Positions 3 to 7,065 of a DNA stretch of 24,102 bases are shown one piece after another (position 1 is the stretch's first letter; each line of letters begins with the position of its first letter). Location of the stretch: positions 1-24,102 of the IMG/VR virus record IMGVR_UViG_3300029267_001898; one strand, given 5' to 3'. Origin of the DNA: a virus. Below the pieces are notes generated by a model. The model was not told the DNA's origin. It did not search any database and saw nothing but the letters and a program-made list of their open reading frames with translations. A program made the position numbers and the translations under genes.

Positions 3-299
3 ACGAAATTTCCAAACGAGTTTACTGAGTCGTCGAAGTATTTCATTAATATCGATGACGAACAAAACATTATTTCATTTAAAATTCAGAATGGCCCCAT
101 CAAAGAGAATGGAGTTAATGGCTGTCAAGTGGTCGACATGATCGCAGTAGCAAGGCACATGATTTATGGGCTAAATGAAAAGTTTCCTTGTCGGGAAAAT
201 GCAATAACATTGACCAGGCTCGATGAGGCAATTCTTTGGCAAGCGCAAAGAACGGCAAACAGGGAAGCTAGGGGCGTTGAAGGAACAAGTAACAAGTAG
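3..299 (+). CDS. Acb2/Tad1 hairpin-domain protein, 3' part (cut by left edge)
   Basis: The reading frame is open from the left edge and ends at TAG 297-299, so only the last 98 residues are visible. They contain FKIQNGPIKENGVNGCQ, then a helical stretch with VDMIAVARHMIYGLNEKFPCREN, then ITLTRLDEAILWQAQRTANREARGVEGT. The order 'NGPIKE.GVNG', a long helix, 'FPCREN', a second helix and a terminal 'R..REARGVEGT' is the pattern of the Acb2/Tad1 hairpin domain found in many phages. Acb2 proteins act in the host cytoplasm as oligomeric sponges that bind cyclic oligonucleotide signals and so block CBASS; related proteins also bind Thoeris signals. That function is known for the family and inferred here. 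The N-terminus lies outside the window, so a fusion to another domain cannot be excluded. The gene is followed after 9 bases by the next small gene and probably shares its transcript. Family call fairly sure, sponge activity less so. Confidence 0.72.
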   Translation, partial: TKFPNEFTESSKYFINIDDEQNIISFKIQNGPIKENGVNGCQVVDMIAVARHMIYGLNEKFPCRENAITLTRLDEAILWQAQRTANREARGVEGTSNK

Positions 300-1752: not shown

Positions 1753-1955
1753 TTAAAAGGAAGTTCGGTCAGAGCTTCACACTTATCGAAAACGGTGAAA
1801 TTATCGCCAAAATTACCCTAAAAAGATGTGAAAATAGGAACGATGTGCACGTTTGCATCTCCGCTGATGCTAAAATAAAAGTATTGCGATCAGAATTGGT
1901 CGGAAAGCAGGAAGAGGAGTTTAACTTTAATAAAAAGTTTTTAATGGATGATTGA
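1743..1955 (+). CDS. CsrA-like RNA-binding translational regulator
   Basis: The 70-residue product begins MLMIKRKFGQSFTLIENGE and continues with AKITLKRC, VHVCISADAKIKVLRSEL and a polar tail. This follows the CsrA layout of five short beta strands and a C-terminal helix: M-L-x-I-x-R-K-x-G-x-S at the start, 'v.v.I.A' in the middle and 'V.R.EL' before the helix. The RNA-contacting Arg6 and the arginine of the 'VxRxEL' motif (Arg44 in E. coli CsrA) are both kept. CsrA dimers bind GGA-containing mRNA leaders and usually block translation; that role is known for the family and inferred here. Start GTG 1743 is chosen because it gives the family N-terminus and has GGAG seven bases upstream. It overlaps the preceding gene by 10 bases and the terminase by 8. 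The strands are more divergent than in cellular CsrA, so target choice may differ. Confidence 0.72.
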   Translation: MLMIKRKFGQSFTLIENGEIIAKITLKRCENRNDVHVCISADAKIKVLRSELVGKQEEEFNFNKKFLMDD

Positions 1956-3402
1956 AAACCTCAAGGAACGATACAAAATAATTGAATCCGGCAAGAGGAA
2001 CTATAAAGTTCGGGCGCAAATAGTTGAGATGGTCAATCGTGACTTCATCTTTTTCTTTAATTATTTTGTCTACACGTATGATCCCCGGACGAAAAGTAAA
2101 ACGCTCCCATTCCTTCTTTATGGGTTTCAAAGAGATTTCTGTTACAAGCTAAATGAGTGCTACGAGCTTAAAAAGCCTCTGTTAGTCGAAAAAAGCCGAG
2201 ACATGGGCTTTTCTTGGGTATTTTTAGGCTGGATTGTCTGGAAAATGATCACCGAAAAGGGTTTTTCTGCCGGTGTTGGCTCAAGGAAGTTTGGCCTGGT
2301 AGATGAAATTGGGAACATGAAAAGCCTCTTGCAGCGGATTAGGTTCATATTATGGAACCTTCCGGGGTTCCTAACACATGGTTACAATGAGAAAAAACAC
2401 TCAAAAATAGGATTGATTAAAATCCCCGAGATGGAGTCGTATGTCGCCGGCGAAGGTGGAGATGACATCGGGAGGGGTGATCGTACCAGTATCTATTTTA
2501 TCGATGAATTTGCCCATATTCCGCGCTCTGTGAAGGTGCAGGAGGCGGTATCTCAAACAAGTAACTGTCTCGTGTACGGGTCAACCCCAAATGGGCGGGG
2601 AAATGAGTTCGCTCGATTGAGATGGGAAACAGACATTGATATTTTCACTATGCACTGGAGAGATCATCCGGGCAAAACTCAAGAGTGGTACGACAAGATG
2701 GCGGCAACTCTCCCGGCAGAGACAATGGCGCAGGAAGTTGACATTTCCTACAACAAGTCAATCAAGGGAAGGGTTTACAAGTGGTTTAGCCGGGAAAAAC
2801 ATGCCGTAGATGTCGAATACAACCCAAATCATCCAGTTCTTATTTCAATTGACTGGGGGATTGGGGATCCAACGAGTGTTATTTTTCTTCAGGATTACCA
2901 TGGGCAATTAAGGATTTTTGACCACTGGGAAGAAGCTGACAGGAGCATCCCTCAGATATTTACTGAAATTGCAAGGATTCTTGGTGGATACAAGGCACAT
3001 CATGGGAGATTTTTAACCTTGAGAGATGTTTCTGGATGGTATGGTGACCCGGACGCAAAAAACCGAGAAAGAATCTCTGGAGATAGTATTTCCAGTTATA
3101 TTTACGACAAATATCATATTACGCTGCGCATGAAGGTGCCAAACGTTATAAAGAATAGAATTTTATCTGTCAATATGCTAGGCTCTAGTGATAGAATATT
3201 GGTGAACAAACGGTTAAACTTTTTCTGTGACTGCGTAGAAAACTATAAGTACCCGGAAAAGGATCATGGAGAGAATGAAAAGCCGCTGCACGACTGGACT
3301 TCCCACGCTAACACTGCGCTTGAATATTACTGTGTCTACGAACACGGGCTTGATCAATTTAGTAACAAAGAAACTGGAATTTATTTAACTCCTTTTAGAT
3401 AG
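1948..3402 (+). CDS. terL: Terminase large subunit (TerL)
   Basis: The 484-residue protein has the two-domain layout of a phage packaging motor. In the ATPase part a Walker A-like loop EKSRDMGFSW spans residues 81-90, GRGDR lies at 175-179, Walker B YFIDEF at 183-188 with catalytic Glu187, and the coupling motif GSTPNG at 211-216. The nuclease part starts near 297 with VLISIDWGIGDP, where Asp302 is the expected first metal ligand of the RNase H-like fold. TerL docks on the portal, pumps DNA into the prohead and cuts the concatemer. The length is normal for the family. ATG 1948 overlaps the CsrA-like gene by 8 bases, and the portal gene follows after 9 bases. A small terminase is not recognised nearby. 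Confidence 0.93.
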   Translation: MIENLKERYKIIESGKRNYKVRAQIVEMVNRDFIFFFNYFVYTYDPRTKSKTLPFLLYGFQRDFCYKLNECYELKKPLLVEKSRDMGFSWVFLGWIVWKMITEKGFSAGVGSRKFGLVDEIGNMKSLLQRIRFILWNLPGFLTHGYNEKKHSKIGLIKIPEMESYVAGEGGDDIGRGDRTSIYFIDEFAHIPRSVKVQEAVSQTSNCLVYGSTPNGRGNEFARLRWETDIDIFTMHWRDHPGKTQEWYDKMAATLPAETMAQEVDISYNKSIKGRVYKWFSREKHAVDVEYNPNHPVLISIDWGIGDPTSVIFLQDYHGQLRIFDHWEEADRSIPQIFTEIARILGGYKAHHGRFLTLRDVSGWYGDPDAKNRERISGDSISSYIYDKYHITLRMKVPNVIKNRILSVNMLGSSDRILVNKRLNFFCDCVENYKYPEKDHGENEKPLHDWTSHANTALEYYCVYEHGLDQFSNKETGIYLTPFR

Positions 3403-6237: not shown

Positions 6238-7065
6238 ATGCTAACTAAAGCAGAATATTCGCCGATTATTAAGGAAGTATGGGCCGAGGAGTTCTACGAA
6301 GAGCTACGGCCACAACTTGGCGTCGCTTCTCTAATTCAAGACGAATACGAAGGTGAGATTAAAGCTTGGGGTGACACTGTTCACGTTTCCCAACTTCAAA
6401 CTCCAGGCCGTGCGCAAATTCGTAGAAATGATAACGAAGCGTACAACACTCAGCAACCAATTTTTGTTAACAAGGATCTAATTGTTGACCGCTCAGCGTT
6501 TTACGGCGTTGACGTTACCAACTGGGCAGAGTACCAAGGTAACCCAAAGGCTCAAGAGAAAATCAGAAAGCTACTTGGGCACGAGATTGCTCGTGCCGTA
6601 GACGAAGAAATTATTGATGCTATCAACCCAGCAGCTTCAAAAAGTGGACAATCTGCCATGAGCAAAGCCCTTATTGCTGAAGCTAGCCGAGTTCTAGACG
6701 TTAATAATGTTCCTGATGATGGAAGCCGTATTGCAATCATCGATCCCTACTATAAGGAAGACTTGATTCAGATTAACGAGTTTATTTCTCGTGATTTCAA
6801 TCCTACTTCAAGTGTTTTCTTGAGTGGTTCGATCAAAGATCCTGTTTATGGATTCAAAGTTTATGTATCTAACTTGCTTCCTCAAAACACTGCGTACTTC
6901 TGGCATCCTTCTTTCATGCAAATTGCAATGCAAAGAGGCGCAGAATACAAAGAAATGGATCTTGAAGCTTCCACTAACGTGCCAAGTAAGCGAGTTCGCG
7001 CAGAGAACCTTTTCGGTCTTGAGCAATTCGATAACAAGCGCGTTTACAAGATTTATAACACTTAA
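6238..7065 (+). CDS. Major capsid protein
   Basis: A 275-residue protein with a strong AAGGAG ribosome site directly before it. It begins MLTKAEYSPIIKEVWAEEFY and contains KAWGDTVHVSQL, NTQQPIFVNKDLIVDRSAFYGVDV, HEIARAVDEEIIDAI, IIDPYYKEDLIQ, PVYGFKVYVSNLLP and ends RVYKIYNT. 'GDTV.V', a long spine helix with 'E.A.A.D..I..AI', and 'G.f.VYVSN.LP' are features of HK97-fold coats of the P22-like/N4-gp56-like branch. It would form the icosahedral shell. There is no N-terminal delta domain and no obvious protease site, which agrees with a separate scaffold. Codon use is cleaner than in neighbouring genes (frequent GCT, CTT, CGT), as expected for the most highly made product. Two decoration-type genes follow. 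Confidence 0.88.
   Translation: MLTKAEYSPIIKEVWAEEFYEELRPQLGVASLIQDEYEGEIKAWGDTVHVSQLQTPGRAQIRRNDNEAYNTQQPIFVNKDLIVDRSAFYGVDVTNWAEYQGNPKAQEKIRKLLGHEIARAVDEEIIDAINPAASKSGQSAMSKALIAEASRVLDVNNVPDDGSRIAIIDPYYKEDLIQINEFISRDFNPTSSVFLSGSIKDPVYGFKVYVSNLLPQNTAYFWHPSFMQIAMQRGAEYKEMDLEASTNVPSKRVRAENLFGLEQFDNKRVYKIYNT

Follow-up and report, generated by a model that had tools for sequence, protein, structure and literature searches.

The open reading frame at positions 3 to 299 (ORF 3-299) of the window, which is the whole of the 24,102-base record IMGVR_UViG_3300029267_001898, very probably encodes the C-terminal four fifths of Tad1 (Thoeris anti-defense 1). Its homology and predicted fold are those of Tad1, and a role as a sponge for immune signals would follow from the family. 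Support for this reading comes from sequence and profile matches, from the fold of the model, and from residue conservation, which makes ORF 3-299 a well-supported new member of the family, otherwise ordinary; Tad1 is already known, widespread, and solved with ligands, and the gene found here is truncated. The gene and its neighbors are as follows.

3 to 299, + strand: 3′ part of tad1; 98 aa, with the 5′ end beyond the record
309 to 512, + strand: small ORF with no named function; 67 aa, GTG start, 9 bases past tad1, no family above cut-off
451 to 717, + strand: small charged ORF with no named function; 88 aa if the start is at 451, overlapping the ORF at 309 to 512, no family above cut-off
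720 to 1316, + strand: GDPD-type phosphodiesterase; 198 aa, Pfam PF03009 at 34.3 bits (cut-off 23.6)
1743 to 1955, + strand: CsrA-like small protein, borderline; 70 aa, PF02599 at 26.7 bits (cut-off 27)
1948 to 3402, + strand: terminase large subunit (TerL); phrog_2 at E 1e-22 and TerL homologues in isolate phages, marking the packaging locus

Inspection of the frame revealed no stop between the contig edge and a TAG at positions 297 to 299. Its translation, TKFPNEFTESSKYFINIDDEQNIISFKIQNGPIKENGVNGCQVVDMIAVARHMIYGLNEKFPCRENAITLTRLDEAILWQAQRTANREARGVEGTSNK, contains the motifs NGPIKENGVNG (residues 30-40), FPCREN (61-66), and RTANREARGVEGT (83-95), and the hairpin pattern described in the original prediction is present where it was placed. 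The start does lie outside the window, as had been proposed: the record begins within the open frame, and no ATG was found upstream of the conserved region in this frame, where the in-frame starts are internal only (GTG 129). What remains comprises strands β3 and β4, the ligand loop, the helical hairpin, and the VEGT tail at the C-terminus. Close full-length relatives are mostly 113-137 aa long; therefore, about 15-40 N-terminal residues are probably missing from ORF 3-299. The best short-form match (L019) has 116 aa and starts with MALETLK. A search of IMG/VR with the window protein alone as query found no near relative, and thus the missing N-terminus was not recovered; a search with the terminase found no sister phage, returning one distant match.

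The significant Protein Data Bank matches of ORF 3-299 were to Tad1 only. A phmmer search gave CmTad1 (8kbb) at E 8.8e-15, CbTad1 (7uav and related entries) at E 6.8e-6, and phage gp184 (8y6v) at E 9.3e-6; with profile A5, built from 72 related sequences, the same three proteins were retrieved at 9.4e-31, 9e-19, and 2.3e-12, respectively. Compared with the known members, namely CmTad1 (8kbb-8kbd), CbTad1 (7uav, 7uaw, 8smd, 8kbe, 8kbf), SBSphiJ7 Tad1, and phiKZ Tad1 (gp184), ORF 3-299 is homologous along residues 24-98 with 30-47% identity. Among isolate phages, 43 records matched by tblastn (E < 1e-5), including the annotated Tad1 of SPG24; SPG24 and the Bacillus phage SBSphiJ7 show 46-47% identity, the latter 47% over 77 shared residues. 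The tad1 gene of SBSphiJ7 defeats Thoeris experimentally (reviewed in PMC12043709). A search of IMG/VR with nothing more than two short degenerate peptides recruited 356 stretches encoding relatives, the closest of which (L017) is 67% identical to ORF 3-299. Neither PADLOC nor NCBIfam contained a matching model. ORF 3-299 also matched PHROG 2428 (E 1.7e-21), aligning to positions 37-131 of the 131 in that profile; matches on this scale lie well beyond what chance would give. This PHROG family is unnamed and of unknown function in PHROGs v4 and, given its relation to Tad1, should be called Tad1. ORF 3-299 thus adds an environmental phage and a function-unknown PHROG to the carriers of signal sponges, and a longer list of carriers makes it easier to foresee which phages can evade Thoeris and CBASS.

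The one Pfam family listed for ORF 3-299, PF24729 (Acb2_Tad1_hairpin), scored 14.1 bits, below the curated cut-off of 27. The profile search proposed with the original prediction therefore failed at the Pfam threshold, whereas the other evidence for Tad1 is strong, and by itself the Pfam result would have wrongly dismissed the hairpin reading. In the alignment of relatives A6, all 45 of 45 sequences matched PF24729 at E 0.1 or better, with a best value of 3.7e-8. The Pfam model under-calls Tad1, with a true member falling far under its cut-off.

Structure predictions, all of them monomers, were in agreement with the sequence data. The AlphaFold2 model of ORF 3-299, computed from A5, had a pLDDT of 87 and displayed two strands (residues 15-18 and 23-26) followed by two long helices (43-60 and 64-90), the first Tad1 strands lying outside the record. 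A Foldseek search with this model returned Tad1 chains for all of the first 17 matches, and the next match appeared at E 1.3. With VIA-align 2, the model superimposed on CbTad1 in complex with cADPR at Z 10.6 (72 residues, 1.6 Å) and in complex with gcADPR at Z 10.7 (94 residues, 5.0 Å), compared with Z 6.6 for the best unrelated row. The predicted strand-strand-helix-helix arrangement, the C-terminal VEGT tail, and the conserved Asn and Arg residues are shared with known Tad1 proteins. The full-length model of L017 (pLDDT 94) superimposed on Tad1 over residues 66-137 (Z 7.7, 1.6 Å over 72 residues), while its N-terminal 65 residues aligned poorly with Tad1 structures; the subfamily of L017 and ORF 3-299 may therefore carry a remodeled N-terminal region.

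Among 15 diverse homologues, Gln-29, Gly-31, Gly-37, Asn-39, Gly-40, Arg-83, Arg-87, and Gly-94 were invariant. In 72-74 IMG/VR relatives the invariant residues were Glu-75, Trp-79, Arg-83, Arg-87, Glu-93, and Gly-94, where the invariance of Glu-75 and Trp-79 is biased because both lie inside the motif used for the IMG/VR search. ORF 3-299 preserves the family-invariant residues Gln-29, Gly-31, Gly-37, Asn-39, Gly-40, Asn-66, Arg-83, Arg-87, Glu-93, and Gly-94. To relate these to the ligand pocket, we used CbTad1 Phe-82, Asn-92, Arg-109, and Arg-113, which we take to be ligand-contacting positions. In the phmmer alignment (7uaw numbering, 0-124), Asn-92, Arg-109, and Arg-113 correspond to the identical residues Asn-66, Arg-83, and Arg-87 in ORF 3-299. 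Unlike CbTad1, ORF 3-299 has Leu-57 in place of Phe-82 in the sequence alignment, and Leu is the commonest residue in this column among relatives (42 Leu, 29 Phe). This mapping relies on a sequence alignment, not on a structural one, and serves as a lead.

The tad1 ORFs of L064, L068, L070, L077, L080, L081, L083, L084, and L096 carry the loop MLTKPASEGGDLNRCQ instead of IQNGPIKENGVNGCQ and keep the CREN and R...R...VEG parts. These relatives may bind a different ligand.

Tad1 is a hexamer of three dimers, in which pockets between protomers hold gcADPR and cyclic dinucleotides and the trimer interfaces hold cyclic trinucleotides, so that Thoeris and CBASS effectors are kept off and the signals are not degraded (PMC12043709, PMC13282480, PMC12657218). 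The signals sequestered are gcADPR, cyclic dinucleotides (CDNs), and cyclic trinucleotides (CTNs) (PMC12043709, PMC12657218). By analogy with the family, the full-length protein of ORF 3-299 would assemble during infection as such a hexamer of three dimers, for which six gcADPR/CDN sites and two CTN sites would be expected. Its inter-subunit pockets would hold the gcADPR that Thoeris TIR proteins produce, and the protein would likewise hold the cyclic di- and trinucleotides of CBASS, cutting none of these signals. ThsA and the CBASS effectors would then stay off, and the phage would escape abortive infection. This proposed mechanism for the window protein is drawn from homology; nothing that was tested sets the protein mechanistically apart from its family, and no new mechanism is implied.

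The original prediction had named an Acb2/Tad1 sponge, and it is the Tad1 part that stands. Acb2 is likewise a hexameric sponge with a helical hairpin, and it shares the Pfam family PF24729 with Tad1, which groups the hairpins of both; it has no β sheet (PMC12043709). That ORF 3-299 encodes an Acb2 sponge, consisting of the hairpin only, with three head-to-head cyclic dinucleotide pockets, is extremely improbable: the best Acb2 sequence match in the A5 profile search (homologue 43) reached a non-significant E 0.87, against 9e-31 for Tad1, and the model shows a pair of strands near its N-terminus (residues 15-18 and 23-26) that are typical of Tad1. T4 Vs.4, an Acb2, does appear in the structural list, but its Z of 5.6 is on par with those of unrelated helical bundles. 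A virion structural protein that has the Tad1 fold and no anti-defense role is also very unlikely. The gene does share its strand with the late genes and precedes the terminase by 1.65 kb, and Lactococcus phage 1706 and Bacillus phage P59 have homologues that carry a structural annotation; however, these annotations are untested names, and many homologues sit in early or recombination regions. Moreover, the Tad1 of phiKZ is delivered by injection from the phage and still works as a sponge (PMC13282480), and therefore presence in the particle would be compatible with sponge function.

A Tad1 fold with a lost or changed ligand range, restricted for example to cyclic trinucleotides or to one cADPR isomer, appears unlikely. 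It would be in keeping with the Phe-82 to Leu change at a putative pocket position, with the differing N-terminal region of close relatives, and with the rewritten loop MLTKPASEGGDLNRCQ in some of them. ORF 3-299 itself, however, retains the loop IQNGPIKENGVNGCQ together with Asn-66, Arg-83, Arg-87, and Gly-94. Among the Tad1 homologues tested so far, furthermore, binding of CTNs and gcADPR is conserved and it is the CDN range that varies (review, PMC12043709). The preferred reading remains a Tad1 sponge, which differs from the solved structures in that the loop preceding CRENA is shorter by one residue and in that its close relatives start with MALETLK and superimpose poorly in the N-terminal region.

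Many Tad1 relatives from environmental phages (L017-L043) start with MALETLK, and their N-terminal region is often KFNESGAMDYKWFEKEIRP. Conceivably, these and ORF 3-299 represent a large and apparently uncharacterized subfamily with a remodeled N-terminus and a different ligand range, perhaps expressed late and particle-borne like phiKZ Tad1, an idea that we regard as unlikely.

Other relatives depart from the usual domain layout. Brochothrix phage ADU4 encodes a 79-aa, hairpin-only relative (L003:3004-3243) that is 51% identical to the window protein; in-frame stops lie upstream, so it is without the N-terminal β sheet and is possibly a minimal Tad1 of Acb2-like size. Burkholderia phage FLC9 gp131 (L014:1242-2258, 338 aa) has, by eye, an N-terminal half resembling a cyclophilin-type peptidyl-prolyl isomerase and a C-terminal Tad1 domain.

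The phosphodiesterase-like and CsrA-like neighbors that had been proposed both exist, the latter just under its Pfam cut-off. ORF 720-1316 displays catalytic-type motifs by eye (GHR, EFDV, DG, VFHD, VEVK) and matches 1zcc weakly; no homologue was found by tblastn (E 1e-5) in 50,697 isolate phage records. Here the GDPD-type enzyme is encoded as a stand-alone protein, within the late region of a phage. Further small ORFs separate it from ORF 1743-1955, which also matched phrog_9500 at E 0.027. Phage-encoded CsrA has reportedly been described already, in a study of phage JC1.

The small host-takeover block into which these genes had been drawn did not find support. The 27 records whose tad1 genes are closest, many of them fragments, yielded neither PF03009 nor PF02599, and a conserved unit of tad1, GDPD, and CsrA is accordingly unsupported (0/27). 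As these records are often fragmentary, the absence is a weak negative that lends no support to a conserved block. Apart from tad1, the only ORFs of the window with recognizable relatives near related tad1 genes were those for TerL and the portal. Joint action of a cyclic-nucleotide sponge with the phosphodiesterase is likewise unsupported, and we know of no GDPD enzyme that acts on immune cyclic nucleotides. The proposed site just before the terminase is correct as to position, with tad1 at the distance given above, but the nearness is not clearly above chance: tad1 and TerL were no more than 3.5 kb apart in 9 of 16 records with related tad1 genes, and since many contigs are short, random placement alone would give 6.4. 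These figures lend no support to a preference of tad1 for the terminase neighborhood.

Elsewhere in the window, ORF 6238-7065 likely encodes the major capsid protein, with ~23% identity to Mycobacterium phage capsids, and the terminase of the record resembles those of proteobacterial phages. The combination of a capsid like that of Mycobacterium phages with a terminase like that of proteobacterial phages suggests that the record is a mosaic.
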